Source: Alternaria dauci (Eukaryota > Ascomycota > Dothideomycetes > Pleosporales > Pleosporaceae). Taken from it: DNA of 64,000 bases. Where the stretch lies: positions 6,944,001-7,008,000 of the forward strand of contig NC_091272.1 in the NCBI RefSeq assembly GCF_042100115.1, in the 5' to 3' direction. The position numbers and the translations under genes are program-made. This document shows, piece after piece, positions 7,560 through 64,000 of this stretch (position 1 is its first letter; every line of letters starts with the position of its first letter). Under the pieces are notes generated by a model. That model was not told where the DNA came from and did no database searches. It worked only from the letters and a program-made list of their open reading frames with translations.

Positions 7560-7564
7560 CTTAG

Positions 7565-8594: not shown

Positions 8595-8651
8595 ATACTA
8601 TAGAGGTAAACAGTATAACTAGCATAGGGTTAGAGGTAAGAGAGTAGCTAT

Positions 8652-9250
8652 AGAGGTCTACCCCTAGGGGTAAGATAGTATCTATAGAGTACTACCCTTA
8701 GGGGCGAGATAGTAGGCGTAGAGTGCTACCCCCAGGGGCGAGATAGTAGGCGCGGGTTGCTGCAAGTTACTGCAAGTTACTACCCCCGGGGGCGAGATAG
8801 TAGGCGTAGAGTGCTGCCCCCAGGGGCAAGATAGTAGCCGTAGAGTGCTGCCCCCGGGGGCGAGATAGTAGCCGTAGAGTGCTGCCCCCGGGGGCGAGAT
8901 AGTAGCCGTAGAGTGCTGCCCCCAGGGGCGAGATAGTAGCCGTAGAGTGCTGCCCCTAGGGGCGAGATAGTAGCCGTAGAGTGCTGCCCCTGGGGGCGAG
9001 ATAGTAGCCGTAGAGTGCTGCCCCCGGGGGCGAGATAGTAGCCGTAGAGTGCTGCCCCCAGGGGCGAGATAGTAGCCGTAGAGTGCTGCCCCCGGGGGCG
9101 AGATAGTAGCCGTAGAGTGCTGCCCCCGGGGGCGAGATAGTAGCCGTAGAGTGCTGCCCCCGGGGGCGAGATAGTAGGCGTAGAGTGCTGCCCCCAGGGG
9201 CGAGATAGTAGCCGCGGATTGCCGTAAGGTGCTGCCCTTGGGGGCGAGAG
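8652..9250. repeat. 34-bp GC-rich palindromic minisatellite, copy 1 (about 17 units)
   Basis: Units of 34 bp consist of GTAGAGTGCTG, a core CCCCCGGGGG or CCCCCAGGGG, then CGAGATAGTAGCC. Edge units are more diverged (CCCCTAGGGG, CCCTTAGGGG). The array is the same length as in copy 3 and exactly 14 units shorter than in copy 2. It lies about 160 bp upstream of gene A. Long minus-strand reading frames through it exist only because a 34-bp unit cycles through three frames without a stop. Confidence 0.92.
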
Positions 9251-9407
9251 TGACTAACACTCACCGCTAGACTTACAGCGGCCTATGCAAGAATAGACGG
9301 CTTCTCGCCTACTTATACCTTGTGTAGTACCTCTCTATTGCTTTCTTACCTTCTCTTATCTCTTTTCCACTTACCTTAGTTTCTGTGTTCTTTCTAACAA
9401 CGTTGCA

Positions 9408-11675
9408 ATGAAGCGCCCTCTAGCAAACGTTTTAACCAAAAACAGCAAACGGCAGCGTACGAATGATCCAGAGATTGAAGAGACAACTCCTATCCACGAA
9501 CAAGCTGCGCCATACCTACTCGCTATAGCGAAGTTTCCAATCGATGCGCTTAGCGCAGAATGGAGTTTTGGTGTCAATAGGTCTATTGACACAGCACACC
9601 AGCGCCGCCTCTGCGAGATCTTTAACGAAACTGGTATTCTTCGACGAGACCCTAGCCACCAACTGCAGATTGCCTGTTCTAAGGAACACGTAGAGCAGAT
9701 GCTTCATCATCTGAAGGTGGAATTGCCAGCTCAGAGCACAGTTACTTCTGCCACGTTTGCGGATAAGGAAGGATTGGAATGGCCGTCGTTCAAGAGCTGG
9801 AAAAGCGTGACTGGAGGGACAGCGGAACTTATTACGGGTCACCATCGTGTAGAGGCATTCAAAGAGTATCTTCGCCTTCGGCAGTTAGGAGAAGAGGAGA
9901 GGTGGTGGGTGTGCCGCATCTACGATAAAGGCGGGTGCCCCTTAACGCGCGTACTGTGAACAACAGCCCCTAACCTTTTTAGACACGCTACCACCAGACA
10001 CTCGTGTTAAACTTCGGGCGAATCGGGCCGATATTACGCTCCCTGACAATCATGGCCAGATATGGTCCAAGTTAACCAGCCTGTTCTGCACAAACGCCAA
10101 TCTCTTTCAAGGCTCAAGCAAGTCAGTTAAGAAAGAGATGAGAGAGCATCTTCAGCTTAGTAGCCGCGTCAAGTTCCCAATACGGCGGCTAGTTACCCTG
10201 TGGAGAAATCAAAACTGGCAGCCCCTGCTTACGCGTTGGTGTTCTACCGCAATTGGGCAGGCAACGTTTAATCTCTCCACTTTTGAGTGGATGGCTAGTT
10301 GTCGGATAGATGACGTATGTGTAACCCGCCGCCGAAATACTCTGACCTGTCTTGCTAATCTACTATCTAGCATTAGTTCGCTGCGTTTGAGAACGTACTT
10401 CGCATCTCTACATCTATTCGAAAGCAGTATGGGGTTGACGCCAGTTTAGCAGACTGGAACACGCTAGCTAGCCTGCCCCAGGCACGAAGTCCCCATGACG
10501 TACAAGACCTGTTCTACCCTGGCGAGGAGTTAGACAAGGATCCTGGCCCTTCCCATACGCGCCGGCAGGGCTTCTTCCCAACTCTAAGCAATGAGGCCTA
10601 CCATGCGCTATACTCCACTGTACTTTCAAAGCCCACACACACGTACACAAACATCCTCGCTCTCTTAAAAACCCCGAAGAAAGAGGGGAAGCTTATGAGG
10701 AGTATTATGACCCACGTCAGCCAATGGGTAAACAGCGGATCCGCCAAGGTGTCTGACAGCGACAACAACAAACCCGCACTGCGGAAGTATCTAGTGCCCG
10801 TGCTGCAGAGCAGGCATGCCGGCCAGGCTGATCAAAAATCTCTTGACCTCCAACAAGAAGTACTGCAACACGTACAGCAAAATGCGGAAGCATTCACAAG
10901 CTCTATACTAGACCGCTATATTGACGAGTACCCAAGTGCAGAGATCAAGAACTACGGCGCACGCTTCCAGCATAAGGTGTGGAGAGAACTGCTGTCAATT
11001 GTGACCAGTTTCACAGGGCCAACCTTGCACAACAAGCACTTGGCGTGCCTAATTTAAAGCGATACCTACATAGCGCGAACGCCTACAATCGCACAAATCG
11101 CGTGTGATGCTATCTGTTAGGTCCCTAAAGTCATTAACGAACCTGCGCTCCAGTCTACTAGGGCAGTAAACGACTTGCTAGAGACAATTCAGGTCGCAAT
11201 CACTGAATGGATGTCTAGACACACTCTAGAAGACTCTGATAATACAAGTCAAGAGGTTCCGCTGCCCGCAAGGCACTCTAACGCCGAGTCTAGCAGAGAG
11301 AGAGAGCTCAATCTGACAGTCTCTAAAGCGGCACGTAGCGTTTCAGCACGGTCGAGTTCGGACCAGCTTACCCCAGAGCTAATTTCTCACCCCTCAACTG
11401 AGCCGCGCATACCCAAGGCATCCCAGCAGACCAAAGTTCAAAACAGGGGGATTGAGGACTTGAGTCTAAGCGACCTTGCTGCAGCCCGAGAGAAACACCG
11501 TCAGAAACGCACCCTTAGCGACCAGGTAGCTGTAAAGGGCAGTGCTTCTCTAAGCGAAAAGACCCGAAAGAAACACCGTAAGAAACACACCCTTAGCGAC
11601 CAGGTAGCTGTAGAGGGCAGTGCTTCTCCAAGCGAAAAGACTCGACAGAAACAACGAGGGGCTTAGAGGAAGTAA
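9408..11675 (+). pseudogene. Gene A copy 1: ParB/Srx-like domain protein, broken by RIP
   Basis: Same gene as at 34,062-36,329, with exons at about 9,408-9,908, 9,967-10,314 and 10,371-11,675. The ParB-like domain in exon 1 is unchanged. Exon 3 carries three in-frame stops absent from copy 2: CAA to TAA at 11,055, CAG to TAG at 11,118 and TGG to TAG at 11,664. There are also several missense changes, such as Glu to Lys. Nearly all differences from copy 2 are CA to TA or TG to TA, so RIP is the likely cause. A truncated protein of about 510 residues that keeps the N-terminal domain could still be made if the gene is expressed. Confidence 0.75.
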
Positions 11676-11833
11676 TCCGTATCTGACCCTAGCCCTAACC
11701 CAATAGACACTGTTCCTCTCCTCTTTCCTCTGCACTGGATATTGTGATTCTCGATCATCATCTATCGATCTACCCTACAAGATCCTCAGCCCTTAGCCAA
11801 CGTACTATTTTATATAATACTGTTCTTATCATC

Positions 11834-14800
11834 ATGTCTTTAGATCTTGCACAACAAAACGATAGCGATTACGATAACAGCAGTGCTGGAGAGGAGGACG
11901 GCCTATACTAAGATGTGCAACCTGATGAGCACGATAGAGAACCTGACGAGCATGATGGAGAAGAATACCACGAGAGCAGCCTTGGGGACGAAGACGCAAT
12001 AGCGAATAATCAACTTACCTGGGCTATTGACCACAGCGGAGGTGACCACCGACTACCTGGTGAGTTTAAGAGCATCCTACTTGTACGCATATAGTAACTA
12101 CGTAGTAGTGAAGGGATTTATCAAGATGATAGACAGCCCCGAATTTAACGGCAGTAAGGCTATTGGAATGCTGCAGAAGCGATACACGATAGACTACGGA
12201 TCGAGGCGCGTTGGGTCCCGACCAGCCAAGCCTGAGGACAAATTTATCCCTGAGTTCCACCTCGACCTTATCATTATCATCGGCCGGCCGCTCCAACCCA
12301 TTGTGAAGTTCTCTACGTTCTTCGACCACGTAACAATCAGCTTTAAACACTGGCGAGCTCCATACAGCGCTAAACACAGCCACGGACTGTCGTTTGATAT
12401 GGAGCATCGTACCTTCCGTCTTGCAAAGGGTGGAACGCGCGAATCTTGGTTTATTGTTATGCACCCTGTCGATAGCACAGTAGACCCTCTTCTGTCAGGC
12501 AGCGAACGTCGCAAACGCCGCGAGAAGGCGTCTAAGCACAGCGCTCTCAAACCCTCCCATGCCCTATTCCTTACGTCGTACATTAAGAAAGTCTTCCTTA
12601 CAGGCGTATTACTTGGAGAGGGTGTTGAGGCTTCTTAGAAATTGGATGGACCCCAGTCGCAATCGATCTCAATCGTCAAGTAGGAAACGTTCCAGGAGCA
12701 GTTCATAGAAGGGTGGCCAGAGTACGTGCGCAAGAACACGCAGGATCCGTTCTGGACTAAGAACCTGCCAGCGTTCCATGCGTATGACTACGGGCAGAAC
12801 CTTCTAATTGAGTTATCTACTGAGCAACTCAATAGTCTGCCTAAGGAAACCCGGTTGCGCCCTGATGACGAGACGTCTGACTCTGATGACGAGACGTCTG
12901 ACTCTGATGACGAGACGTCTGACTCTGATAGCGAGACGTCTGATTCTGGGAATGATTTGTTAAACTCTGGGAATGATTTACCAAACTCTCAGAATGATTT
13001 ATCTAACTCTGAAGACGCGGCGGCTAGGTCCGAAGGCGGCGCAGAGGGGGCTACGCCCCCACAGAGCGGTACACAAACAGGCGATCCAATTCCCCCGCCG
13101 CACGACCATCAACAGCCGTTTGATAACTACACACAGGATCTTCTACGCGCACTAGAGGACAAGTATAGACTGGAGAGCATTAAGACGGTCTCCTACGCGC
13201 TAGCGGTCGACATCCACTCAATAGCATCTTCCAACCTCCCTAACGCCTCTAATGACGTCGGTGTCATTCTCGCACCTGCGCGCTGCCTCCTTGCCAATCG
13301 CAACAACGTTGTTCGCCAATACCAACACCCGCGCGACTTTACCTTCTACCCTCTTGCCTTCCATCCATCGTACGGCAACTTCTCCTCCGCGCAGCCCCCA
13401 GCATTCCTACGCGACAACGTGCTCGCTGTAATGGAGGACAACATGAGCTATCAGAACAACGGTGCGAGCGTGTTGACTAGTGGTTATTTTCAGGCGTACT
13501 CCAACATTAAGCGAACTATACGCCATAGCCCCGGCAACTTACTTGCTACCAAGGGCATTGCCACGGCTGCCCTGACGCTGCCAGATCAGGATGGCAACCT
13601 AAACCCTCGGGTAGCGGCGAAGCGGCAGCGTTTACTGCGGAAATTGCGAGGCGAACAGACTCCTGATAACCCTACGTCTTCCCAACCGTTCGCTCGCGAG
13701 CAACAGCGGATTAAAGCCGCTATAAAGGAAGAACTGTACGCGTTTAGGATGGAGCAAGTTCTGTCTGTGCAGGTGTCGCAGTTAGCTGACGGTCAACGGA
13801 ATTTTGCGACAGTGCTTCAACCTATCCTCCAGCTAATCCGGTACTTCTCGCTGGAACAACCTACCTACATTGATGTCCTCTTCGCGTTCAAAGAACGCAT
13901 CTTTCCAAAGGTTCTCTCCTCCTTTGCTAGTCTGTTCGCGCACGCATCAGACGAGTTTTATCGTCGCTTCAAGGCTGCTGGCTCTAAAGGGCTGCCTTTT
14001 GCCCTAGCGGAAGGTGTGGCCGCATTCGATCGCCTTGGCAGCTACTGCTTTACTGGGTTCCCCCGGTCTTTAGTGGGCTCAGTGCTCGGGCCTCTCTGCA
14101 CCATAGAAAGCATTGAGCAGGGTGGGTGGCCGTTTATCGACCCCAACATGCTCAATCTGCAAGGCAGTGGCCATGCTAACCTAGTGCGTTGGCCGCGCAT
14201 GGACAATGGACGACCTATTATGATGCACGTTGCTTCCATTCGCCACCACTATGGGCCCCAGGTTGCCGCTTATTGTCACAGCGAGGTATGGTTCCGTGAG
14301 CTTGGTGGGCTCACAGGTAAAGGGCCTCGTGGCGCAGAAGAGTTCCTAGTAGAGGTGCTCGAAGAGATGTGGAAGCCGCAGACAATCGCTTTCGTAACAC
14401 ACCAATTCTATCGCGCTCTGAACAAGGGCGGACGGGGCAATGCTCAAAGCGTAAGCCTAACAACACTGCAGGCACGACAGGAGGCGCAAGAGCAGGTGAC
14501 GCGTTGGGCTGAAAGCGAGCACCCCTTCTCTGCAGGGTTCGTGCAATTAGCGTTTCAAATATCAGCCGCTAACACAGTACAGGGAGTACGAGTCGATCTT
14601 TCCTGTCTTTTATCCAGAAGCGACTTCGGGTTTGAGAAGCCAGACGCGACGCGACTTTGCGCAAGAGCTCTACTGGGAGTGTGTTAACAGCCATGGCCAA
14701 TCTAGTAGCTACCTCTTTTCAAAGAACGCGAGCTGGTTCACTGTGTTACGCGCTGCCGTGCAACACGCCAGGGCCAAGGCGATGAAGGAGGAATACTGGA

Positions 14801-15709
14801 TCAGCGCCATAATGTCAGCTCTAGCGGCGTGCCGCATTGACTGTGTGCCTGGTTCATACCATGGCCGATTGAGCTACCGGAGAATGACGCGGCTAGTCGG
14901 TAACGTTCCGGCCCCATCCGCTATAGCGGCGAGACCGGGCAGCCTCAAGCGGGCAGCGATTGAGGCAGTACACCAAGCAAAGCGGCGCTCGCAAACAAAG
15001 AGTACTATCGACTTTGGTTGCCAAATCCCTTTTAACGCCATCCCGCCGCTAGTTGAAAAAGGTTTTCAGCAGTTGGACGGCCAGTTCTCAAAGTCCGGCA
15101 TGAATCAGAAGGTTCGTGAACACTACCACAGAGCACGTCAGTGCCTCATCGAGTGCTTAGGTCAGCCAAAATGCGATCTAATGCTCATGTTGGTGTTAAC
15201 CCTTGCATCCTCTTCAGCTACCCCTACTGTAGCGGTGAATGCGACTGAGTTTTCCAAAGGACCAACCAAGAACTCTGAAATGTTTGCGGCCGCCTTGGTA
15301 ACAAGAATGCTCTGGTCTCTTCGACCAGATTACTTCCCGTCGGAGGAAGACGATGGTTGGGTGCTTTCGGTACGGGAGATGACGAAGAAGATTGGTAAGA
15401 CTTCCCTAAGAGAGGCCCTTTTCCCAAGTAAGAAGCATTGCTAACATAGTACTATCTGGGGTAGAGCACAAAGGTTGCAACAACCGCTTCCTTCGACAAC
15501 TGCAATGGATTCGGGTTACTAGTGGGCGTCGAGACTCCCCAAGGAACAGCGACATAGCGATCAACTATGATTCCGTTCTTGAGAAGAGACGTACAGAGTT
15601 AATGCGACTACGGAGCGATGCTAAAGGTTTTATTCAATGCGTGTTTGGTAGTTCTGATTATGCATGGGTTGACCGATGTCATACTATTATACAGGAGTCC
15701 CCAGTGTAG
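11834..15709 (+). pseudogene. Gene B copy 1: large unknown protein, broken by RIP
   Basis: Same gene as at 36,488-40,363, with exons at about 11,834-12,059, 12,109-14,576, 14,644-15,427 and 15,474-15,709. Stops not present in copy 2 are CAA to TAA at codon 26 (11,909), TGG to TAG at 12,636 and TGG to TAG at 12,681. Further RIP-type changes occur up to 13,181 (for example TCA to TTA near 12,961). From about 13,200 to the end of the gene I found no difference from copy 2. The early stop in exon 1 should abolish the full protein. Confidence 0.75.
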
Positions 15710-16477
15710 AGTAAGCTATTATAGCTTCCACTATAATTTTACATCTTCTCTCCTATAAAACACGTATATACTATATACATCTTCTATCCTATACAGCTTT
15801 TGAAGAGATTAATACACGTTACGTAGTGTTATGATTTTTTAAAATATTTCGTATTAACTGTAAATTCAGAAAAACACCAACCCCAATATTAACCGTACTA
15901 TCGTTGTCGCATGTAATCCGTTTCTTAATCTTAACTGTGTCTCTTCTCTACTATTTACATAATTAACGTAATAGTAAAAAGACGCAGGCACTAGAGAATA
16001 GAGCCTGCGAAGTCTACATTGCATTAGTGGCTGAAGTAGCACAGTGTAGAGGCATCCTGTTACTATTCTCCGCAGGCAAAGGTAATAGCACCTTGCGCGG
16101 CAACCTTTAAGGAAAAGAGAGGAAGCCGCTATGTGTTTCGCTCTTCTTTGTAGTTATTTGTAGATTTGTAGCCTGCGGTGTTGTTGACTTATCTGTATCG
16201 CAATACGACAGCAGCTTCCTAGCAGGCTGTAATCGTCGAGAGCCACGGTACAGCCGGTGACTTAGACGACAGACCTAGCCTAACACTAAATTGGCAAGCT
16301 TCCGCAACACGGACGCATACACCCCACCTGCTAATAAGCACCGCTATGACTAGCAACTCTCGTCTACCTCACTACTTCCGTAGAGTGTCGCTAGAAGCTC
16401 AGCATTGTGCTCTTCGAGCCCATCACTCTTTTTCCGCAGCGCATAGTTCAGGGTCGTCAGGTAACCCGGTTTATTGT
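15710..16477. other. Convergent intergenic region B/C, copy 1
   Basis: About 770 bp between the 3' ends of genes B and C. It starts AT-rich and contains a motif at 15,959-15,991 (AAAAAGACGCAGGCAC core) that recurs downstream of gene E. The motif overlaps a short dyad formed by GCAGGC and GCCTGC. No coding region was seen. Confidence 0.6.
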
Positions 16478-18340
16478 TCAACCTATAGGGCTTACAGGAC
16501 AGAATAATTCAAGTACCGACATCTGTCGCAATGGCGCCGGCGATGCCGGGATACTTTCCGATGCGTCAGAATCAGTGTCATCTTCGGCTTCGCTGTCTGG
16601 AATCTCTGTTAACCCCACCGCCGTAGCTAGCGCATTCGCTTCAATGCTAAGCCTCTCCTTTCCAGCAATCGGCGCACCAGTAATTCCATCCGGCCCTAGC
16701 CAGGCTTCGAGGGCCCTGCTTGCCGTGCAAATTTCCGGCCGTTCGCGCTTCACTAGCTCAAGAAAAACATCGCGCTGGTTCTTCCGCAGCACACGCTCGA
16801 GCCAATGGTTTGAGACCTCTTCGTGGGGTATGAGCAGCAGCGATCCCCAGCCTAGAGCTTGAACTATGTCGAACCATCGTGTCGCTCGCTTTAGGCGGTA
16901 ACGAAAGGCTGCGTGGTCAGATTTAGATGGTGATTGGCAAACCAGATGGACCAAATATGTGATAGCCTCTGTTCGTGCCTGGCCCTTCCCGTACCTGTTG
17001 CGAGTTCTGTCGTTACTGGCTAGACGATCAGCGACCTGGATTTCGTCGACCTTGCGAGCGTACGCCTTCCCTAGCAAAGCGAAAGCCCAGCGAGTGCCAA
17101 TGTTTACAGCTGCAAGCATCGTCTCGTACCGTGTGCACATGTCCCAGGCAAAGCAGAATGCATTGTCGGCATCAGTATGAAGTGTTGCGCTACTATCCAC
17201 TGACTGCGACATTTGCGTCTGGGTAAGAACATAACGATCTACTGGTTTTACCAAGAACGGCGTGCCCTGTTTCCGCCAATTATGCAGGAACTGCGCAGCG
17301 CTGTACTGCGAGGTTGCATTTCCAAAAGCACGCGCTTTTGCTAGCATGCTGCAGGCAGTATAGTAGGGTGTTGGCGAGGCTGTATAGAAATCAGCATCTT
17401 CCGCGACTTTTTGCTTGAAGATCCAAGAGATCGTCGGCTCATCGTCTGGCGCAATGCTGCCGTACGCCATACGTTCCTGCGCAGGCATCTTCTCAGGCGG
17501 TTCCTTTAAGCCTATCGCCTCGAGCTTTATTACACGCGATCTTTCTAGCTTTCTTGTACGCCGTAGCTCTGCAAGACGATTCTTGTTTGTAACTGTTGCG
17601 GACCTCTTTACGGATAGAGGCGTCGTCGCACTCTGGTTTTCGCTGTCCTCGTCGCTTGTTCCGCGCTCGTGTCCCCCCTCCGCTCTAGCTGTGTCTTTGC
17701 CAGCGTGTACTGTCATAGTGTTGACTTCGCTAGCCCTAGCCGTCGATTCGTCCGCGCTGTCCTCCTGTATTGCTAGGCGGTTTAAGCTGTTGGCACGGAT
17801 CTCGCTGCGAATAGGCGATGAGGAGGCTGGACGTTTACGGTACGGCACAAGGTCGCCTGTAGCCCTCTGTGCTGATGGCGGTATGCTATCGTCCTTGTCT
17901 GAGTCTATAGCCATGCGGTCCTCCGCGATGCCTTCCGTTGGCGTCATTAGCCGCGCTGTAGTTAAGTTTCTAGGCTCTAGAGACTTACTACTAGCAAAGT
18001 CCATAGCAGCGCTTGTGAGACGCCCCCAATTTTCTGCGTCAAGTGTGCTGGCACCCAGCGTCTCTTTCAGCAGCCATATCGCATCTAGTGTCGAGTGGGC
18101 TATGAAAACCGGCTTGCACGCTTCGTCGTCGCCTACTTCTGGAACGATCCATCCCGCGTATCGTACATCGCCTGGTACACGGCATGGTTCTGCGAGACGA
18201 CGCGCAAGAAATCTGCTGTAGGACGGGTTAGGTGGGCTGTATGCTAAGTTGTTAGCGACTGTAGCGTCCCACTGTGCAGGAAAGCCTCTTCCGCTGTGTT
18301 TATCCTGACAATGGTCACTATCGAGCTGTAACTGATCCAT
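16478..18340 (-). CDS. Gene C copy 1: 620-aa protein of unknown function
   Basis: A single open frame of 620 codons, with no difference that I found from the copy at 41,132-42,994, where it is described. It is convergent to gene B. It lies outside the RIP-mutated left end of this unit, which may explain why it is still open while genes A and B are not. I do not recognise the family. Confidence 0.8.
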   Translation of the reverse strand: MDQLQLDSDHCQDKHSGRGFPAQWDATVANNLAYSPPNPSYSRFLARRLAEPCRVPGDVRYAGWIVPEVGDDEACKPVFIAHSTLDAIWLLKETLGASTLDAENWGRLTSAAMDFASSKSLEPRNLTTARLMTPTEGIAEDRMAIDSDKDDSIPPSAQRATGDLVPYRKRPASSSPIRSEIRANSLNRLAIQEDSADESTARASEVNTMTVHAGKDTARAEGGHERGTSDEDSENQSATTPLSVKRSATVTNKNRLAELRRTRKLERSRVIKLEAIGLKEPPEKMPAQERMAYGSIAPDDEPTISWIFKQKVAEDADFYTASPTPYYTACSMLAKARAFGNATSQYSAAQFLHNWRKQGTPFLVKPVDRYVLTQTQMSQSVDSSATLHTDADNAFCFAWDMCTRYETMLAAVNIGTRWAFALLGKAYARKVDEIQVADRLASNDRTRNRYGKGQARTEAITYLVHLVCQSPSKSDHAAFRYRLKRATRWFDIVQALGWGSLLLIPHEEVSNHWLERVLRKNQRDVFLELVKRERPEICTASRALEAWLGPDGITGAPIAGKERLSIEANALATAVGLTEIPDSEAEDDTDSDASESIPASPAPLRQMSVLELFCPVSPIG

Positions 18341-18930
18341 TTTAGAACCAAGGCTGACGCTCTAAGCCAGCGATTAGTGTGTGGGTAGAAAAGTAGTAAG
18401 AATAACAGCAGAGAAAAGAAGACGTGGCATGGAAAGCAGGGGGCCAGGGCGTGCCGGCAAGGTGCGGCATATAGTCGCACCGACTAACAAGGTAGAGTAC
18501 GGTCCCTAATCCCAGAAGAGGTCGCGTCCTTGAGTGTAGAATACATGTTATTTCTCTTTTTAGAGTGCTATTCTTATATAATATTGAATACTAAAGTTTA
18601 GTTGTTGAAGACACGAAAGATCTCAAAGAGGTAGTCCTAGATAGGGAGGGTCGCTCTGCCTCGTACATCTAAGAGCGCAGTTCCAAATAATATAACACTA
18701 GTATTTGCCTTTAGAGGTGCAGCGTGAAGAAGGTTGGAGCGCCAGCCCTAAGGTAGTTAAAGCGTCCGAATGTTCCAGCTGCAAGGTTGCGATATGGCTT
18801 GGGACGCAAGTTGCCGCAACGGTTGGTTGCCAGCGAGGGCAAGTTACGCAGAGACCACGGTATGGCTTCATACACCTACTAACACCTTTTGGGCAACTCT
18901 CTGGACTGTCCAAGGTACTGCATGACAGAG

Positions 18931-19343
18931 TTGTCAACAATCAAGCCAATCAAGCTGGGTGCCCCAGCTTAGCTTGATTAGTGGGTACCTCTACCTCAGC
19001 TTAGCTTGATTGGCTTGATGGTTAAAATTAATAAGCTTGGCTTGTTTAGCTTGATTAGCTTAACAAAATTAATCCCCCTTTCAAGAAGCTTAAAAGGGGA
19101 TAGTGTAGGGGTATCCTTATATAATCTTATCACCACGTGATCTTATCACCACGTGACCTTACTTACTTACTTTAACCTTCTTTATAGAGTATTAATTCTA
19201 TCAAGCCAATCAAGCCAAACAATCAAGCTAGCTTATAGTAGCTTGGCTTAATTGATTTATACCTCTACTCTAGCTTGGCTTGATTGATACGCCAGCTTGA
19301 TGCCCCAGCTTGATAGCGATCAAGCTGGCTTGATTGTTGACAA
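18931..19343. mobile_element. 413-bp MITE-like element with 18-bp inverted ends, copy 1
   Basis: The left end TTGTCAACAATCAAGCCA is repeated exactly, in inverted form, at the right end (19,326-19,343). The interior is rich in further TCAAGC/GCTTGA dyads and has no coding capacity. The same element is at 43,585-43,997 in copy 2, where context is given. Confidence 0.65.
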
Positions 19344-19763
19344 GTCTGCTGCATGAACAGACGGTTGTTGAACCAATGAACAAACTGATTCCTAATGGTT
19401 GTCGCTGTAGAGAAAACGTCGAGGTAGGCAGTATACTCAGTCCTGGACGGCACGCTGGGACTCTGCCTTGGCCACTGGTTCCTCAGATCTTCCACGAACG
19501 AGTCGATCGCCCTAGTTTGATTCTCCTGAAATGCGGCGTGCAATCCTGTCGTGATGCTGCTGTTCAGTCTCCGATTCTCGCTTTGGTAGATTCGCTTCAT
19601 TGGAATCTGCAAACGCCTTGGTGTTGCACAGCACCGTGTTCCGAATCGCATTCTTGTTGAAGTCCTGTCCCTGGTCTAGCTCGTATTTCAGTGCAGTAGG
19701 TGGCTGTACCGCCGAGAGCTTATATACCCTATAGGCTGCAGCTAGAGCCTGTATCGCATCCAT
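19344..19763 (-). pseudogene. Broken ORF next to the MITE, copy 1
   Basis: Same sequence as 43,998-44,417. Two overlapping minus-strand frames make up what looks like one frameshifted coding region ending at the MITE. The product is unknown; details are given with copy 2. Confidence 0.35.
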
Positions 19764-19812
19764 GTCTGACTTTTCGGCGTAAGCCGTCGTACAAAACTAT
19801 GTCATTAGATCA

Positions 19813-20152
19813 CGATATGGCTTGGGAAGCAAGTTGCCGCAACGGTTGGTTGCTAGCGAGGGCACGTTGCGAAGCGGTTGCGATATGGCTTGGGACGCAA
19901 GTTGCCGCAACGGTTGGTTGCTAGCGAGGGCACGTTGCGAAGCGGTTGCGATATGGCTTGGGACGCAAGTTGCCGCAACGGTTGGTTGCTAGCGAGGGCA
20001 CGTTGCGAAGCGGTTGCGATATGGCTTGGGACGCAAGTTGCCGCAACGGTTGGTTGCTAGCGAGGGCACGTTGCGAAGCGGTTGCGATATGGCTTGGGAC
20101 GCAAGTTGCCGCAACGGTTGGTTGCTAGCGAGGGCACATTGCGAAGCGGTTG
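19813..20152. repeat. 68-bp tandem repeat, copy 1 (5 units)
   Basis: Five units of 68 bp begin at CGATATGGCTTGGGACGCAA and include the inverted pair TTGC-C-GCAA. The copy-2 array has six units. A single stray unit lies about 1 kb to the left at 18,790-18,850, on the other side of the MITE. Confidence 0.9.
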
Positions 20153-20470
20153 CGAAGCATGGAGTAGTATTTAGTGTGGTAGGTTGCATTCGGCCTGACT
20201 CGGAAGACCACGCGCCCGCAAGTCAGGCTGACAGCAGCGCTTCCACTCACAACGTTACCTAGGTACAGCAGTAACTTGCTATTGCTAACAGAGGCAACTT
20301 TCTAGGCTTCCTACAGTGGCAGCAGTAGGCAATACGTACAGCGTTACTCTATGTTAGTCTGGTGCGCCTATATCGGTATTGAGTCATGGGATCGATTTTG
20401 TACTACAGACTACTTGAGAAAGTTACAGTATGTCTCCGCGATTTCCGGGCAGTCATTCCTTCAAAGTATC

Positions 20471-32772: not shown

Positions 32773-32829
32773 ATACTATAGAGGTAAACAGTATAACTAG
32801 CATAGGGTTAGAGGTAAGAGAGTAGCTAT

Positions 32830-44417: not shown

Positions 44418-44466
44418 GTCTGACTTTTCGGCGTAAGCCGTCGTACAAAACTATGTCATTAGATCA

Positions 44467-44874: not shown

Positions 44875-45192
44875 CGAAGCATGGAGTAGTATTTAGTGTG
44901 GTAGGTTGCATTCGGCCTGACTCGGAAGACCACGCGCCCGCAAGTCAGGCTGACAGCAGCGCTTCCACTCACAACGTTACCTAGGTACAGCAGTAACTTG
45001 CTATTGCTAACAGAGGCAACTTTCTAGGCTTCCTACAGTGGCAGCAGTAGGCAATACGTACAGCGTTACTCTATGTTAGTCTGGTGCGCCTATATCGGTA
45101 CTGAGTCATGGGATCGATTTTGTACTACAGACTACTTGAGAAAGTTACAGTATGTCTCCGCGATTTCCGGGCAGTCATTCCTTCAAAGTATC
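44875..45192. other. Spacer between the 68-bp array and the gene D 3' end, copy 2
   Basis: About 320 bp with no feature I can name. It probably includes the gene D 3'-UTR. One base differs from copy 1 (45,108 C versus 20,386 T). Confidence 0.4.
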
Positions 45193-55335: not shown

Positions 55336-55890
55336 AAAGGTTCTAGAGACGCTGGAGGTGATTTGGAGATCAAGGAAGACAAGCCTCCCAGTAGGATAGT
55401 GTGGGACTAGGCTAATATCGATCTCTTCTTGTTCTTTGAAAGCCAGTACGTAGTAATGAAGAGAAGTAGTAGAGTAAGAGTTTATGCGCTTACTCTATTC
55501 CTCTTAAAGTGATAATACACTGTATCAAAATAATAAACGTGCTGGTAAAAGACGCAAGCACAACACTGTTGAAAGACACTGTAATAAATCGCGGTAAAGG
55601 TGTGTTTCCTAAACACCTTGAGTTCACCGTATGCAGCTGTATATGTTTGACAATAGATGGGTTGGAAGTAAAGCCCTGAACTTCAAGCGGTTCTGGAGAG
55701 TTGCGGCTACGTTGGGGAGAAGAGGAGTTAAGGCAGAAGAGGATTTTGGAGGAGAAGTAATAATATACTGTATGTAGAACTTATACGGGTGTATAAAGCT
55801 GTAATATGTAGTATAGTAAGGTACAATAGGTGGTACAATAGTTGGTAATATGTACTATAGTATGTTGTATTATACATTACGATATATCAC
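55336..55890. other. Gene E 3' flank, copy 2
   Basis: Non-coding. It holds the 32-nt motif at 55,530-55,561 shared with the gene B 3' flank. No gene seen; it leads into the 22-bp array. Confidence 0.5.
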
Positions 55891-56615
55891 GGTTGATGTT
55901 GCAGCAAGTTGAGGTTCATGTTGCAGCAAGTTGCGGTTGATGTTGCAGTAAGTTGCGGTTAATGTTGCAGCAAGTTGAGGTTCATGTTGCAGCAAGTTGC
56001 GGTTAATGTTGCAGCAAGTTGCGGTTGATGTTGCCGCAAGTTGAGGTTCATATTACAGCAAGTTGCGGTTAATGTTACAGCAAGTTGCAGTTAATGTTGC
56101 AGCAAGTTGAGGTTCATGTTGCAGCAAGTTGCGGTTGATGTTGCAGCAAGTTGAGGTTCATGTTGCAGCAAGTTGAGGTTCATGTTGCAGCAAGTTGCGG
56201 TTGATGTTGCCGCAAGTTGAGGTTCATGTTGCAGCAAGTTGCGGTTGATGTTGCAGCAAGTTGCGGTTGATGTTGCCGCAAGTTGAGGTTCATGTTGCAG
56301 CAAGTTGAGGTTTATGTTGCAGCAAGTTGAGGTTCATGTTGCAGCAAGTTGAGGTTTATGTTGCAGCAAGTTGCGGTTGATGTTGCAGCAAGTTGAGGTT
56401 TATGTTGCAGCAAGTTGAGGTTCATGTTACAGTAAGTTGCGGTTAATATTGCAGTAAGTTGCGGTTGATGTTGCCGTAAGTTAAGGTTGATGTTACAGTA
56501 AGTTAAGGTTCATGTTACAGCAAGTTACGGTTTATATTATAGTAAGTTAAGGTTTATATTATAGTAAGTTAAGGTTTATATTATAGTAAGTTAAGGTTTA
56601 TATTATAGTAACTTT
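55891..56615. repeat. 22-bp minisatellite, copy 2 (about 33 units)
   Basis: Units of the type GTTGCAGCAAGTTGMGGTTSAT. The first roughly 25 units keep CA and TG; the last ones next to the AT-rich block have become TTATAGTAAGTTAAGGTTTA. A minus-strand frame rich in Leu, Gln and His is a repeat artefact. Confidence 0.9.
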
Positions 56616-58049
56616 TAATAAATATTAAAGTTAGTATTACCTAATCTTTTAAAAATTTATATATCTATTAGTATAAATAGTTAGTAATCCTTTTACTATA
56701 TCTTTAAAAAATATACTTTCTACTAAATATATTTATAATAATTAATTTTTTTCTTTCTTATTTATTATTTAATAATATTACTATAGAAGTAATAAAACTA
56801 GACTACTTTTACTTTATAATAATAAAGTAATAAATAAAGAAAAAGTATAAAATAAAGCTAGTTAAATTAAATTTTATTTAAATAAGTAGAATAATAAATA
56901 CTAAAGTAAGAATAAAGTTATTAAGTATTTAATTAAGTAATAAGTAAAGATAGTTTAAAGCTATATTAACTAAATACTAGTTACTACTAAGTAAGACTTT
57001 CTTATATTATCTTTATAAAAGAAATTTATACTACTATATATAAAACTTAAATAAAGATTAAGAATTTATAAAGTTTTACTATAATTAAGAAACCTTTTAA
57101 AAAAAGTTATTTATTTTACTTAACTAAGGGTAAGTATATAGTATATATTAATATATTAAATAAGATTTTTTTACTTTTTTATTTATCTATATTCTTATAT
57201 AAAGGTTTACTTAGATTTAATAACTTTTAACTACTTTATAAAAAGAAGAAAAGAGTATAACTTATATTTAAGATAAAGATATTTATAAAGTAAAAGAATA
57301 AAATATTTAATACTTTAAAATAAAAAATATTTTATAAAAATTTAGTATTTTTTCTTTAAGAAAAAAAAGTATAATAAAGTATTAGTAACTACTAAGTATA
57401 GTTATTTAAAAAATAAGAAGTAGTTTTTTATAATTTATTATTTTATAATAACTAGTTACTTCTAATTAACTTACTATATAATAAGCTAAAGCCTAATTAG
57501 TTTATTCCTTAATAGGATCTTAGTTATATATATAAAGTATACTACTTATAGAATCTAAGTAGTAAGTAGTTTACTTAGATTCTATACTAGTAAACTAAAT
57601 AAATAATACTCTAAGCTACTACTTCCTAAATAACTTTTAAACTATAGCTTTCCTTAACTTCTTTTCTTATTTAATAAAATAATAGTATACTTATATAATA
57701 GCTCCTTAAGTATAGCCTTTTATATACTACTTCTAACTATATAGCTATTTTTAATTAAGTAAACTAGTAGAAAGAAATAATTTTAAAAGTAGTATTTATT
57801 AAAAGTTAATAAAAGATTTAAGGTAAAAATAAATTTTTTTTTATTTTATTTAAAAAAAGAGTTTTTAAGTATTTTAAGTAATAGTTAGTATAGTTTTTTA
57901 AATCCTTTATTACTAATAGTAAGATTTATTTCTAAAGTATATAGTTTTATTATTTATATTACTATATAGCTAATAATATTATAAGAATAAAATAAATATA
58001 AACTTTACTACTATTTTACTTTAACTTTAATATAAATTAATCTTAAAAG
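56616..58049. other. AT-rich RIP-saturated block, copy 2
   Basis: Same block as 30,937-32,370, the same length, with only a few base differences (for example near 57,147, 57,492 and 57,515-57,525). No ORF. Confidence 0.75.
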
Positions 58050-58523
58050 CCTTAAGTAACTAAGAAGCCCTAAGTAACTAAGAAGCCCTAAATAACTAAG
58101 AAGCCTTAAGTAACTAAGAAGCCCTAAGTAACTAAGAAGCCCTAAGTAACTAAGAAGCCCTAAGTAACTAAGAAGCCCTAAGTAACTAAGAAGCCCTAAA
58201 TAACTAAGAAGCCTTAAGTAACTAAGAAGCCCTAAGTAACTAAGAAGCCCTAAATAACTAAGAAGCCCTAAGTAACTAAGAAGCCCTAAATAACTAAGAA
58301 GCCTTAAGTAACTAAGAAGCCCTAAGTAACTAAGAAGCCCTAAATAACTAAGAAGCCCTAAATAACTAAGAAGCCCTAAGTAACTAAGAAGCCCTAAGTA
58401 ACTAAGAAGCCCTAAGTAACTAAGAAGCCCTAAATAACTAAGAAGCCCTAAATAACTAAGAAGCCCTAAGTAACTAAGAAGCCCTAAGTAACTAAGAAGC
58501 CCTAAATAACTAAGAAGCCCTAA
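58050..58523. repeat. 18-bp array containing CCCTAA, end of unit 2 (about 26 units)
   Basis: Same unit as at 32,371-32,772, with exactly four more repeats (72 bp). It mixes CCCTAAATAAC, CCCTAAGTAAC and CCTTAAGTAAC variants. It joins unit 2 to unit 3. Confidence 0.92.
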
Positions 58524-58580
58524 ATACTATAGAGGTAAACAGTATAACTAGCATAGGGTTAGAGGTAAGAGAGTAGCTAT

Positions 58581-59179
58581 AGAGGTCTACCCCTAGGGGT
58601 AAGATAGTATCTATAGAGTACTACCCTTAGGGGCGAGATAGTAGGCGTAGAGTGCTACCCCCAGGGGCGAGATAGTAGGCGCGGGTTGCTGCAAGTTACT
58701 GCAAGTTACTACCCCCGGGGGCGAGATAGTAGGCGTAGAGTGCTGCCCCCAGGGGCAAGATAGTAGCCGTAGAGTGCTGCCCCCGGGGGCGAGATAGTAG
58801 CCGTAGAGTGCTGCCCCCGGGGGCGAGATAGTAGCCGTAGAGTGCTGCCCCCAGGGGCGAGATAGTAGCCGTAGAGTGCTGCCCCTAGGGGCGAGATAGT
58901 AGCCGTAGAGTGCTGCCCCTGGGGGCGAGATAGTAGCCGTAGAGTGCTGCCCCCGGGGGCGAGATAGTAGCCGTAGAGTGCTGCCCCCAGGGGCGAGATA
59001 GTAGCCGTAGAGTGCTGCCCCCGGGGGCGAGATAGTAGCCGTAGAGTGCTGCCCCCGGGGGCGAGATAGTAGCCGTAGAGTGCTGCCCCCGGGGGCGAGA
59101 TAGTAGGCGTAGAGTGCTGCCCCCAGGGGCGAGATAGTAGCCGCGGATTGCCGTAAGGTGCTGCCCTTGGGGGCGAGAG
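58581..59179. repeat. 34-bp GC-rich palindromic minisatellite, copy 3 (about 17 units)
   Basis: Same length and apparently the same variant order as in copy 1. Confidence 0.92.
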
Positions 59180-59336
59180 TGACTAACACTCACCGCTAGA
59201 CTTACAGCGGCCTATGCAAGAATAGACGGCTTCTCGCCTACTTATACCTTGTGTAGTACCTCTCTATTGCTTTCTTACCTTCTCTTATCTCTTTTCCACT
59301 TACCTTAGTTTCTGTGTTCTTTCTAACAACGTTGCA

Positions 59337-61604
59337 ATGAAGCGCCCTCTAGCAAACGTTTTAACCAAAAACAGCAAACGGCAGCGTACGAATGATCCAG
59401 AGATTGAAGAGACAACTCCTATCCACGAACAAGCTGCGCCATACCTACTCGCTATAGCGAAGTTTCCAATCGATGCGCTTAGCGCAGAATGGAGTTTTGG
59501 TGTCAATAGGTCTATTGACACAGCACACCAGCGCCGCCTCTGCGAGATCTTTAACGAAACTGGTATTCTTCGACGAGACCCTAGCCACCAACTGCAGATT
59601 GCCTGTTCTAAGGAACACGTAGAGCAGATGCTTCATCATCTGAAGGTGGAATTGCCAGCTCAGAGCACAGTTACTTCTGCCACGTTTGCGGATAAGGAAG
59701 GATTGGAATGGCCGTCGTTCAAGAGCTGGAAAAGCGTGACTGGAGGGACAGCGGAACTTATTACGGGTCACCATCGTGTAGAGGCATTCAAAGAGTATCT
59801 TCGCCTTCGGCAGTTAGGAGAAGAGGAGAGGTGGTGGGTGTGCCGCATCTACGATAAAGGCGGGTGCCCCTTAACGCGCGTACTGTGAACAACAGCCCCT
59901 AACCTTTTTAGACACGCTACCACCAGACACTCGTGTTAAACTTCGGGCGAATCGGGCCGATATTACGCTCCCTGACAATCATGGCCAGATATGGTCCAAG
60001 TTAACCAGCCTGTTCTGCACAAACGCCAATCTCTTTCAAGGCTCAAGCAAGTCAGTTAAGAAAGAGATGAGAGAGCATCTTCAGCTTAGTAGCCGCGTCA
60101 AGTTCCCAATACGGCGGCTAGTTACCCTGTGGAGAAATCAAAACTGGCAGCCCCTGCTTACGCGTTGGTGTTCTACCGCAATTGGGCAGGCAACGTTTAA
60201 TCTCTCCACTTTTGAGTGGATGGCTAGTTGTCGGATAGATGACGTATGTGTAACCCGCCGCCGAAATACTCTGACCTGTCTTGCTAATCTACTATCTAGC
60301 ATTAGTTCGCTGCGTTTGAGAACGTACTTCGCATCTCTACATCTATTCGAAAGCAGTATGGGGTTGACGCCAGTTTAGCAGACTGGAACACGCTAGCTAG
60401 CCTGCCCCAGGCACGAAGTCCCCATGACGTACAAGACCTGTTCTACCCTGGCGAGGAGTTAGACAAGGATCCTGGCCCTTCCCATACGCGCCGGCAGGGC
60501 TTCTTCCCAACTCTAAGCAATGAGGCCTACCATGCGCTATACTCCACTGTACTTTCAAAGCCCACACACACGTACACAAACATCCTCGCTCTCTTAAAAA
60601 CCCCGAAGAAAGAGGGGAAGCTTATGAGGAGTATTATGACCCACGTCAGCCAATGGGTAAACAGCGGATCCGCCAAGGTGTCTGACAGCGACAACAACAA
60701 ACCCGCACTGCGGAAGTATCTAGTGCCCGTGCTGCAGAGCAGGCATGCCGGCCAGGCTGATCAAAAATCTCTTGACCTCCAACAAGAAGTACTGCAACAC
60801 GTACAGCAAAATGCGGAAGCATTCACAAGCTCTATACTAGACCGCTATATTGACGAGTACCCAAGTGCAGAGATCAAGAACTACGGCGCACGCTTCCAGC
60901 ATAAGGTGTGGAGAGAACTGCTGTCAATTGTGACCAGTTTCACAGGGCCAACCTTGCACAACAAGCACTTGGCGTGCCTAATTTAAAGCGATACCTACAT
61001 AGCGCGAACGCCTACAATCGCACAAATCGCGTGTGATGCTATCTGTTAGGTCCCTAAAGTCATTAACGAACCTGCGCTCCAGTCTACTAGGGCAGTAAAC
61101 GACTTGCTAGAGACAATTCAGGTCGCAATCACTGAATGGATGTCTAGACACACTCTAGAAGACTCTGATAATACAAGTCAAGAGGTTCCGCTGCCCGCAA
61201 GGCACTCTAACGCCGAGTCTAGCAGAGAGAGAGAGCTCAATCTGACAGTCTCTAAAGCGGCACGTAGCGTTTCAGCACGGTCGAGTTCGGACCAGCTTAC
61301 CCCAGAGCTAATTTCTCACCCCTCAACTGAGCCGCGCATACCCAAGGCATCCCAGCAGACCAAAGTTCAAAACAGGGGGATTGAGGACTTGAGTCTAAGC
61401 GACCTTGCTGCAGCCCGAGAGAAACACCGTCAGAAACGCACCCTTAGCGACCAGGTAGCTGTAAAGGGCAGTGCTTCTCTAAGCGAAAAGACCCGAAAGA
61501 AACACCGTAAGAAACACACCCTTAGCGACCAGGTAGCTGTAGAGGGCAGTGCTTCTCCAAGCGAAAAGACTCGACAGAAACAACGAGGGGCTTAGAGGAA
61601 GTAA
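59337..61604 (+). pseudogene. Gene A copy 3: ParB/Srx-like protein, broken by RIP
   Basis: Equivalent to 34,062-36,329, with exons at about 59,337-59,837, 59,896-60,243 and 60,300-61,604. It has the same three nonsense changes in exon 3 as copy 1 (TAA at 60,984, TAG at 61,047, TAG at 61,593) and the same missense changes. The two copies therefore share an ancestor that was already mutated. The ParB-like exon 1 is unaltered. Confidence 0.75.
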
Positions 61605-61762
61605 TCCGTATCTGACCCTAGCCCTAACCCAATAGACACTGTTCCTCTCCTCTTTCCTCTGCACTGGATATTGTGATTCTCGATCATCATCTATCGATCT
61701 ACCCTACAAGATCCTCAGCCCTTAGCCAACGTACTATTTTATATAATACTGTTCTTATCATC

Positions 61763-64000
61763 ATGTCTTTAGATCTTGCACAACAAAACGATAGCGATTA
61801 CGATAACAGCAGTGCTGGAGAGGAGGACGGCCTATACTAAGATGTGCAACCTGATGAGCACGATAGAGAACCTGACGAGCATGATGGAGAAGAATACCAC
61901 GAGAGCAGCCTTGGGGACGAAGACGCAATAGCGAATAATCAACTTACCTGGGCTATTGACCACAGCGGAGGTGACCACCGACTACCTGGTGAGTTTAAGA
62001 GCATCCTACTTGTACGCATATAGTAACTACGTAGTAGTGAAGGGATTTATCAAGATGATAGACAGCCCCGAATTTAACGGCAGTAAGGCTATTGGAATGC
62101 TGCAGAAGCGATACACGATAGACTACGGATCGAGGCGCGTTGGGTCCCGACCAGCCAAGCCTGAGGACAAATTTATCCCTGAGTTCCACCTCGACCTTAT
62201 CATTATCATCGGCCGGCCGCTCCAACCCATTGTGAAGTTCTCTACGTTCTTCGACCACGTAACAATCAGCTTTAAACACTGGCGAGCTCCATACAGCGCT
62301 AAACACAGCCACGGACTGTCGTTTGATATGGAGCATCGTACCTTCCGTCTTGCAAAGGGTGGAACGCGCGAATCTTGGTTTATTGTTATGCACCCTGTCG
62401 ATAGCACAGTAGACCCTCTTCTGTCAGGCAGCGAACGTCGCAAACGCCGCGAGAAGGCGTCTAAGCACAGCGCTCTCAAACCCTCCCATGCCCTATTCCT
62501 TACGTCGTACATTAAGAAAGTCTTCCTTACAGGCGTATTACTTGGAGAGGGTGTTGAGGCTTCTTAGAAATTGGATGGACCCCAGTCGCAATCGATCTCA
62601 ATCGTCAAGTAGGAAACGTTCCAGGAGCAGTTCATAGAAGGGTGGCCAGAGTACGTGCGCAAGAACACGCAGGATCCGTTCTGGACTAAGAACCTGCCAG
62701 CGTTCCATGCGTATGACTACGGGCAGAACCTTCTAATTGAGTTATCTACTGAGCAACTCAATAGTCTGCCTAAGGAAACCCGGTTGCGCCCTGATGACGA
62801 GACGTCTGACTCTGATGACGAGACGTCTGACTCTGATGACGAGACGTCTGACTCTGATAGCGAGACGTCTGATTCTGGGAATGATTTGTCAAACTCTGGG
62901 AATGATTTACCAAACTCTCAGAATGATTTATCTAACTCTGAAGACGCGGCGGCTAGGTCCGAAGGCGGCGCAGAGGGGGCTACGCCCCCACAGAGCGGTA
63001 CACAAACAGGCGATCCAATTCCCCCGCCGCACGACCATCAACAGCCGTTTGATAACTACACACAGGATCTTCTACGCGCACTAGAGGACAAGTATAGACT
63101 GGAGAGCATTGAGACGGTCTCCTACGCGCTAGCGGTCGACATCCACTCAATAGCATCTTCCAACCTCCCTAACGCCTCTAATGACGTCGGTGTCATTCTC
63201 GCACCTGCGCGCTGCCTCCTTGCCAATCGCAACAACGTTGTTCGCCAATACCAACACCCGCGCGACTTTACCTTCTACCCTCTTGCCTTCCATCCATCGT
63301 ACGGCAACTTCTCCTCCGCGCAGCCCCCAGCATTCCTACGCGACAACGTGCTCGCTGTAATGGAGGACAACATGAGCTATCAGAACAACGGTGCGAGCGT
63401 GTTGACTAGTGGTTATTTTCAGGCGTACTCCAACATTAAGCGAACTATACGCCATAGCCCCGGCAACTTACTTGCTACCAAGGGCATTGCCACGGCTGCC
63501 CTGACGCTGCCAGATCAGGATGGCAACCTAAACCCTCGGGTAGCGGCGAAGCGGCAGCGTTTACTGCGGAAATTGCGAGGCGAACAGACTCCTGATAACC
63601 CTACGTCTTCCCAACCGTTCGCTCGCGAGCAACAGCGGATTAAAGCCGCTATAAAGGAAGAACTGTACGCGTTTAGGATGGAGCAAGTTCTGTCTGTGCA
63701 GGTGTCGCAGTTAGCTGACGGTCAACGGAATTTTGCGACAGTGCTTCAACCTATCCTCCAGCTAATCCGGTACTTCTCGCTGGAACAACCTACCTACATT
63801 GATGTCCTCTTCGCGTTCAAAGAACGCATCTTTCCAAAGGTTCTCTCCTCCTTTGCTAGTCTGTTCGCGCACGCATCAGACGAGTTTTATCGTCGCTTCA
63901 AGGCTGCTGGCTCTAAAGGGCTGCCTTTTGCCCTAGCGGAAGGTGTGGCCGCATTCGATCGCCTTGGCAGCTACTGCTTTACTGGGTTCCCCCGGTCTTT
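61763..64000 (+). pseudogene. Gene B copy 3: 5' part, broken by RIP and cut by the window end
   Basis: Exon 1 is 61,763-61,988; exon 2 starts at about 62,038 and leaves the window. Stops shared with copy 1 are TAA at 61,838 (codon 26), TAG at 62,565 and TAG at 62,610. Two further changes seen in copy 1 (at 12,961 and 13,181) are absent here. The full protein cannot be made from this copy. Confidence 0.72.

Follow-up and report, generated by a model that had tools for sequence, protein, structure and literature searches.

The DNA analysed here is a 64-kb window (64,000 nucleotides; C1:6944001-7008000) of the Alternaria dauci assembly, which comprises 10 contigs (labelled C1, C2 and so on) and 34.9 Mb. 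The right edge of the window lies about 44 kb from the right end of contig C1 (7.05 Mb); R and L denote right and left contig ends below, and labels such as L057 or L070 denote individual genomic stretches that were read. Self-comparison of the window revealed two full units and a third, partial unit of a five-gene element, arranged head to tail. This agrees with the two complete and one partial units of 24-26 kb described in the initial annotation, whose start at 8595 proved to be the exact first base of unit 1 and whose gene order (A+, B+, C-, D-, E+) holds. The claim that the units are near-identical stands for the main aligned blocks, which share 96-100% identity, but the window covers only part of the family, with four units at the right end of C1 (C1:6952595 to 7052283) and 36 genome-wide. 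The length difference between units 1 and 2 arises largely from the 34-, 68-, 72-, 69/51- and 22-bp arrays. The units are not uniformly intact: in units 1 and 3 the searched exon of A contains 3 TAG and 1 TAA and that of B contains 2 TAG, and gene D of unit 1 is broken (open frame of 1,191 codons vs 1,676 in unit 2). No tRNA or Rfam features were found in the 64-kb window. The units and the genes of unit 2 are as follows.

8595..32772, + strand: unit 1 (innermost), 24,178 bp, with the telomere on its right side
32773..58523, + strand: unit 2, 25,751 bp, carrying the longest frames
58524..64000, + strand: left part of unit 3, which runs past the window (next unit start at C1:7027796)
34062..36329, + strand: gene A, exons 34062-34584, 34637-34968 and 35025-36329
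36488..40363, + strand: gene B, about 1.2 thousand amino acids, with introns; last exon provisional
41132..42994, - strand: gene C, one frame of 620 amino acids
45193..50223, - strand: gene D, stop-to-stop frame spanning 1,676 codons and enclosing a 72-bp array; start provisional
50740..55335, + strand: gene E, four CCHC zinc knuckles, a UPF1-like superfamily 1 (SF1) helicase and C-terminal 69/51-bp repeats

Across the assembly, the DNA of gene C was found at 36 places on 19 of the 20 contig ends, in the same orientation relative to the end throughout, two of the copies being cut by the contig end. Twelve ends carry a single unit and seven carry stacks of 2-6 (C1R 4, C2R 2, C3R 4, C4L 6, C5R 3, C6R 2, C8R 3). 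The only contig end without a unit, C7 right, finishes in sequence identified by eye as ribosomal DNA (rDNA)-like, and the C2R, C5R and C6R contigs break off within a unit. Protein-level searches, in which the copy counts per gene are lower bounds, gave at least 36 copies of A (one exon), together with a relic and a duplicated piece at C9 left, at least 36 of B (one exon) with one 39-residue fragment at C5:2795912, at least 36 of C, at least 34 of D (half of the gene; one copy cut by the contig end) and at least 31 scored copies of E out of 45 candidates. Genes A-E sit at contig ends and occur elsewhere only as relic pieces, and no copy of B or C with chromosomal flanks on both sides was present among the 36. 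The copies are near identical: in L001-L008, 4,863 bp around gene C are 99.98-100% identical to the window.

Wherever the contig extends that far, the outermost unit directly adjoins (TTAGGG)n. The outer ends read (CCCTAA)n-CGGTTACAGC-18-bp array, and at real chromosome ends the 18-bp array is accordingly followed by CTGTAACCG(TTAGGG)n. The exact outer junction, GAAGCTGTAACCGTTAGGG, occurs at 17 places on 14 contig ends, with one further place inside C4 at two mismatches; slight variants are found at C2L and C5L, and C2R, C5R and C6R stop short, which accounts for all 19 ends. Mapping the copies against the chromosome ends of the assembly thus bore out the telomere association proposed earlier, and the results support the view that the family is an undescribed, telomere-associated and possibly selfish multigene element.

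Some ends show individual features. At C2 left (C2:1-160, L010) the telomere begins after GAAGCTG, without TAACCG, as if a few bases had been eroded and the end then healed. Short interstitial telomere tracts occur at C3:122-387 and C6:102-822, each finishing in the outer junction of the unit and at most 0.9 kb from the contig end. About 120 kb lies beyond the C3 right telomere (L028, L029; C3:3325000-3445196), and its end is mitochondrial-like by eye, an assembly join; beyond-telomere sequence was also seen at C4 right (about 21 kb) and C7 left (about 180 bp). At C9 left (L017, C9:1-3355) an inverted left part of the unit stands ahead of the telomere, probably through a chimeric join.

The inner edge of the units is fixed. 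It reads ATAC-TATAGAGGTAAA (also written ATAC-TATAGAGG), the element starting with ATACTATAGAGG. A pattern search with the first bases of the unit, allowing at most three mismatches, gave 40 places genome-wide, with which 35 of the 36 units could be paired; the 36th (C4 left, gene C at 95146) was read directly as L070 and has the same terminus with more mismatches. The five extra starts belong to truncated or relic copies (C1:55742, C4:155781, C5:2870967, C8:50934 and C9:2614212). Altogether 41 inner termini were read (38 in L034-L068, 2 in the window and 1 in L070), all of which contain ATA, followed by C in 40. The three termini of the window are listed here.

8595..8640, + strand: fixed inner terminus of unit 1, ATACTATAGAGGTAAACAGTATAACTAGCATAGGG, joined to a Gypsy-type flank degraded by repeat-induced point mutation (RIP)
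32773..32818, + strand: fixed inner terminus of unit 2, joined within the 18-bp array of unit 1 (CCCTAAATA before the joint, CTATAGAGG after it)
58524..58569, + strand: fixed inner terminus of unit 3, joined within the 18-bp array of unit 2

The sequences upstream of the terminus are chromosomal DNA or truncated parts of an older unit, and they are highly diverse. The 41 termini are preceded by 32 distinct 20-mers, which fall into 27 groups at 15/20 identity, one of them pairing L037 with L049 perhaps by AT-rich chance. Before the ATA no constraint was apparent in the 31 distinct 20-mers of L034-L068 except a leaning toward A/T at -5 and -6. Comparison of 20 flanks of about 300 bp showed 95% identity between L036 and L048 along 286 bp, and shared stretches of 22-92 bp in three further pairs; upstream of the C3R joint there is a third copy of the L048 sequence (90%). 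A double telomere repeat, (TTAGGG)2 or (CCCTAA)2, was absent within 120 bp upstream, as far as read, at all 41 joints. Because one fixed inner terminus stands behind so many different upstream sequences, the sequence evidence argues strongly that the unit is mobile.

The left flank of the window (1-8594) looks like a RIP-degraded Gypsy-type element (TA/AT 1.78), its repeat structure and composition being computed and its retroelement identity assigned by reading; the gene region of the unit is without strong RIP (TA/AT 0.94-0.98). The flank contains direct repeats resembling long terminal repeats (344-827 and 7074-7557, 92%) and a 244-bp tandem, and the C6 right and C7 left units are joined inside other copies of the same element. 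At C5 left the flank has normal GC content and a 97-codon open frame that runs into the joint, so that a gene may have been cut there.

Several units are joined to older ones, which were cut at eight places: in the 18-bp array, at four sites in an AT-rich block (AT block), twice in the 34-bp array and in a RIPped left end. The arrays and the AT block, none of which has an assigned strand, and the joints in window-equivalent positions are as follows.

32956..33868: 34-bp array of unit 2 (also 8783-9214 and 58712-59143), immediately preceding gene A and containing CCCC(C/A)GGGG palindromes
44467..44877: 68-bp array, between C and D, containing GCAAGTTG
55891..56635: 22-bp array of unit 2 (30673-30930 in unit 1), containing GCAAGTTG
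56636..58040: AT block of unit 2 (30931-32360 in unit 1), GC 0.147
58047..58523: 18-bp array of unit 2 (32368-32775 in unit 1), AAGCCCTAA(A/G)TAACTAAG, the outer end of the unit
32299, 32005 and 57514, together with L070: joints in the AT block
8711 and 8833: joints in the 34-bp array
9317: joint in a RIPped left end

Two joints in repeats could also be compared with another copy (C8R with C3R, and L045 with the Gypsy flank). Taking the element to start with ATAC, the runs shared by element and target at ten sites measure 3, 3, 3, 2 (L070), 3, 3, 3, 4, 7 and 3 nt. At an eleventh site, C2 left compared with C3R, 2 nt are shared, or else the older unit was cut back to CTATA and re-capped. The L046 joint lies within the same Gypsy family, whose copies are too divergent for use. 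The shared stretch is thus 2-7 nt, usually ATA, at the 11 sites with a known uninterrupted target, and the distal part of the target is lost at the joined end. Over the six array and AT-block sites with full ATA the product of the ATA frequencies is about 2e-8, a value for sites picked post hoc and with L070 excluded. A strict ATA target rule was dropped after L070 and softened to a microhomology of 2-7 nt. None of the eight joints inside older units falls in the gene region, though 193 of the 386 ATA triplets of unit 1 lie there, which implied that recession from the end or selection biases the site. Where they can be tested, the aligned targets indicate that the fixed element end was joined at a matching sequence of 2-7 nt, and the recurrence of this end behind many joints suggests that units were joined repeatedly to broken or receding chromosome ends.

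The composition of the stacks is informative about their growth. Gene B occurs in several classes (an intact 894-codon frame, a 901-codon frame of more than one score class, and one-TAG and two-TAG forms). Of 17 pairs of neighbouring units, 11 differ in B class (10 when the 901-codon classes are pooled) and 6 share it, and the same class is found on different chromosomes, suggesting that stacks grow at least partly by additions from other ends. Local unequal crossing-over as the sole amplifier was ruled out by these 11 differing pairs, the other 6 notwithstanding. Units 1 and 2 differ by 44 substitutions, 25 of them in the A-B stretch at 10-14 kb. In unit 1, 35 of the 44 appear as C-to-T or G-to-A changes, and 30 of these 35 have a CpA/TpG context. 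The stop numbers in A and B are the same in units 3 and 4 of C1 right, so that the mildly RIPped A-B stretch seems to be shared. The AT block contains not one CA or TG dinucleotide (RIP-saturated), and it holds the joints of later units at other chromosome ends; it was apparently saturated once and then copied along with the unit, the gene part escaping. RIP-like changes mark the left-end relics at C1:55742 and C5:2870967, and a heavily RIPped remnant at C8:47944-50964 in the C8 left arm, about 25 kb inward of the inner edge of the present unit, retains a gene A remnant of 55% identity with 35 stops. These relics indicate that the family is old, while its present copies are near identical.

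The proteins of the unit were examined through a Pfam scan of ten reading frames of unit 2, in which the exons of A and B were scanned as frames rather than as spliced proteins. The only matches above cut-off were AAA_12, AAA_11 and a zinc knuckle, all in E. The stop-to-stop frame of E has 1,531 codons in unit 2; AAA_12 was matched at 3.7e-27 and the nearest solved structures are UPF1/NAM7, in keeping with the zinc-knuckle UPF1-like helicase proposed from the letters. The scan also agreed with the earlier failure to recognise a transposase or recombinase: the sole transposase-named match was hAT dimerisation at an E-value of 0.042, far below cut-off, on a frame overlapping the E repeats. No reverse transcriptase domain was found in the ten frames or in the aligned relatives of B and C, and no DUF3435 in the ten frames or in the scanned relatives of A and B; RecQ, DUF3505 and Helitron Pfam models gave no match in the ten frames. 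Helitrons have an HUH Rep nuclease, a Pif1-like helicase and a CTRR 3' end; such an end was not seen by eye, and B or C might have an HUH fold. Gene D had been called a divergent SNF2-like ATPase. It showed no SNF2 Pfam match and no solved-structure match, and near its Walker A motif it gave weak local matches to ZorD/DrmD (9e-4 and 4e-3) and a phage DNA-helicase family (8.5e-8), which weakly suggest an ATPase of that kind.

Intron 1 of gene A is GC-AG, placed by fit to relatives, 15 of which were found with a shortened protein query. DUF3723 was matched by 5 of the 10 relatives scanned among these 15 (E-values of 5e-4 to 0.04, all below the curated cut-off) and by the first exon of A itself at 0.028 (Pfam), suggesting that A is at best weakly DUF3723-related. 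The label ParB-like, which had rested on a GHHR-type motif recognised by eye, found no profile match: ParB-type profiles matched neither the A exons nor the ten relatives in Pfam, nor the relative P0169 in NCBIfam, PADLOC and PHROGs. For gene B, 183 relatives were found, 120 of them among the matches listed, including Fusarium and Metarhizium, and 49 aligned rows of relatives contain no consistent domain. Gene C is the single 620-residue frame that had been reported; its 46 relatives, where named, are all from Pleosporales (Alternaria, Pyrenophora, Ascochyta, Boeremia and Paraphaeosphaeria). PF28402 is a precomputed Pfam label found in relatives of C, and the local Pfam scan gave nothing for it. 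Searches of B and C with their relatives against Pfam, PDB sequences, NCBIfam, PADLOC and PHROGs (B by its relatives in the last three) gave nothing consistent. With patterns picked after viewing the C alignment, Q..[LIMV]..[LFYHM][FY] was found in the last 60 residues of 33 of 35 aligned C rows, compared with 0.3% of 3,500 shuffles and none of the 49 B rows (many partial), and 23 C rows also carry [VIL].[DE]I.DS[ED] nearby; we take these motifs to be PIP-box-like (PCNA-binding-like) and SUMO-interaction-like, respectively. In the protein lists, relatives of two of A, B and C occur in Pyrenochaeta (A, B), Paraphaeosphaeria (A, C) and Fusarium (A, B). A viral origin was considered and set aside, as no relative turned up when viral contigs were searched by profile with C and B.

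Four of the arrays (the 34-bp left region and the 68-, 72- and 22-bp arrays) have the 8-mer GCAAGTTG in common, compared with a longest common word of 6 in 2,000 shuffles; the array texts were hand-picked and include a variant segment of the left array. The 8-mer is therefore a candidate binding site. The unit ends show a slight inverted similarity, but 1.6% of the window's 635 CTAA-starting 13-mers score as well, and terminal inverted repeats were rejected as too weak to claim.

Taken together, these results make it probable that the unit is mobile and specialised for chromosome ends, to which it attaches by its fixed inner terminus. Joining by the fixed end can be read from the sequences, and the manner of joining and copying would be as follows. 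The element would consist of the fixed inner terminus (ATACTATAGAGG...) and a telomere-bearing outer edge (18-bp array-CTGTAACCG-(TTAGGG)n). A chromosome end would recede or be cut, so that it comes to lie in unique DNA, in a dead transposon or in an earlier unit, and a new unit would be attached through its inner terminus at a match of 2-7 nt, usually ATA, the distal sequence being lost or replaced; repeated rounds would give head-to-tail stacks and re-capped ends. The donor might offer a free or specifically cut inner end, to which the 3' end of the chromosome would anneal and prime copying out to the donor telomere, in a process resembling break-induced replication (BIR); alternatively, microhomology end joining might link both ends. 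Copying may be driven through the host PCNA by the two helicases (E and D) together with the PIP-box-like C, and A (or B) may recognise the inner end or the GCAAGTTG and 34-bp arrays. In a bolder form, which we put forward tentatively and regard as somewhat less probable than not, the unit would be a DNA-only telomere transposon, whose own helicases and uncharacterised proteins cut or expose the inner end, capture eroding ends by microhomology and copy the element with its telomere. Telomerase loss as the driver was discarded: the genome has a telomerase RNA-binding domain at C8:1169027-1169472, split into two pieces, the second with one internal TAG.

Several observations weigh against an end-specialised mobile element. 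No recombinase, nuclease or polymerase was identified in the unit, no extrachromosomal form was seen, though no search aimed at one was possible, and the precise terminus fits transport by the element's own proteins and copying by host repair alike. The uninterrupted target is known at 11 sites, a minority of the inner flanks; the L070 and C2 left comparisons give AT only, so that ATA is not a strict target requirement, and the L057 terminus has G where the others have C (ATAG). Stop codons interrupt A and B in units on several ends, which means that some units are not intact, and several end structures in the assembly are chimeric. The main competing explanation, which we regard as rather unlikely though well worth weighing, is an ordinary subtelomeric repeat of the Y'/TLH (telomere-linked helicase) kind, spread and homogenised by host homologous recombination (BIR and unequal exchange) with its genes as passengers. 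The near identity of L001-L008, the existence of stacks, the alleles shared between ends, the interstitial telomere tracts close to the left ends of C3 and C6 and the same B class in 6 of 17 neighbouring units all fit it, and Y' elements are described, in the parts of the source available, as spreading by recombination and BIR (PMC13177704). However, homologous recombination leaves unexplained how one fixed inner base comes to stand behind 27 upstream groups that share 2-7 nt where testable, and the units of the window have no telomere repeat between them. Once units have been joined, such recombination may well account for their homogenisation.

A large cut-and-paste or tyrosine-recombinase transposon of the Starship kind, inserting into AT-rich DNA, surviving only near ends and later losing its outer flank, would account for the fixed left terminus and the slight inverted similarity of the unit ends (matched in score by 1.6% of 635 13-mers), and the weak relation of A to DUF3723, a Starship accessory family according to the accessible part of the source (PMC12506042), is in line with it. 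We nevertheless consider it improbable, as no DUF3435 or transposase catalytic domain was found in the ten unit-2 frames, no two-flanked B or C copy exists among the 36, and telomere forms the outer edge on every contig that extends so far. That the assembler pasted one or few copies onto the ends is highly improbable. Chimeric ends are present (mitochondrial-like DNA past the C3 right telomere and the inverted piece at C9 left) and three contigs stop inside a unit, yet the stacks on different chromosomes differ in junctions and allele orders, and distinct inner flanks, truncation points and RIP-marked relics are unlike the copying of one unit.

Compared with known systems, the A. dauci element shows both similarities and differences. 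The Y' elements of Saccharomyces cerevisiae, as far as the available text describes them, are multi-kb (5-7 kb) repeats with a helicase open reading frame and 36-mer arrays, single or tandem next to the telomere at many ends, about half of them preceded by interstitial telomere repeats (PMC13177704). Like Y', the A. dauci unit is subtelomeric, tandem and helicase-encoding, with short tandem arrays; unlike Y', it spans 24-26 kb with five genes and a fixed inner terminus in different flanks. The telomere tract found at 0 of 41 A. dauci joints is a weak contrast, since Y' is reported in that text to have such repeats at only part of its junctions. Among the TLH-type elements of filamentous fungi, the DHX_G198 repeats of Colletotrichum higginsianum, in the sections available, lie at all 24 ends in one orientation between telomere and unique DNA, and encode a RecQ-like helicase with DUF3505 in single copies of 11-18 kb (PMC5576322). 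The A. dauci unit likewise lies directly under telomeres at many ends in one orientation, whereas it has no RecQ or DUF3505 match and its E is nearest to UPF1/NAM7. The X3X3R8 repeat of Parastagonospora (Stagonospora) nodorum is presented, in the portion of the source available, as a pleosporalean multigene repeat with Rad5/SNF2-like helicase genes, unknown genes and a ubiquitin-conjugating enzyme, with no telomeric location given there (PMC3017866). By description, both it and the A. dauci unit are pleosporalean multigene repeats with helicase genes.

Telomeric retrotransposons (HeT-A/TART, MoTeR, FoTeR and Penelope-like terminal elements) occupy chromosome ends, where they can form head-to-tail stacks, and in the case of HeT-A/TART they attach to ends that are receding. 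Their copying depends on reverse transcriptase, which was not found in the scans of the A. dauci unit. Starships are fungal multigene elements with a DUF3723-type gene and a precise terminus; in contrast to them, no DUF3435 captain was found in the A. dauci unit, which is not set between two flanks. In the open-access literature searched, with most subscription papers outside the search, we found neither this gene set nor an end-joined element of this kind described. A conservative view would take the element as a variant of the Y'/TLH kind; we rate it higher and set it apart from the named families because the defining domains looked for were not found and the mode of joining is different.

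To our knowledge, the elements responsible for building or capping chromosome ends are either retrotransposons or helicase repeats that move by recombination, and a multigene element with a fixed joining end and without a reverse transcriptase would add a third mode of chromosome-end formation. If the tentative DNA-only telomere transposon is real, this element forms every chromosome end seen in A. dauci except the rDNA one, taking the role filled in flies by HeT-A/TART, but without reverse transcription. The finding bears on the repair of receding ends by mobile DNA, on why unrelated helicases recur under fungal telomeres, on the roles of DUF3723-like proteins and of two unknown conserved proteins, and on the loss and gain of genes at Alternaria chromosome ends.

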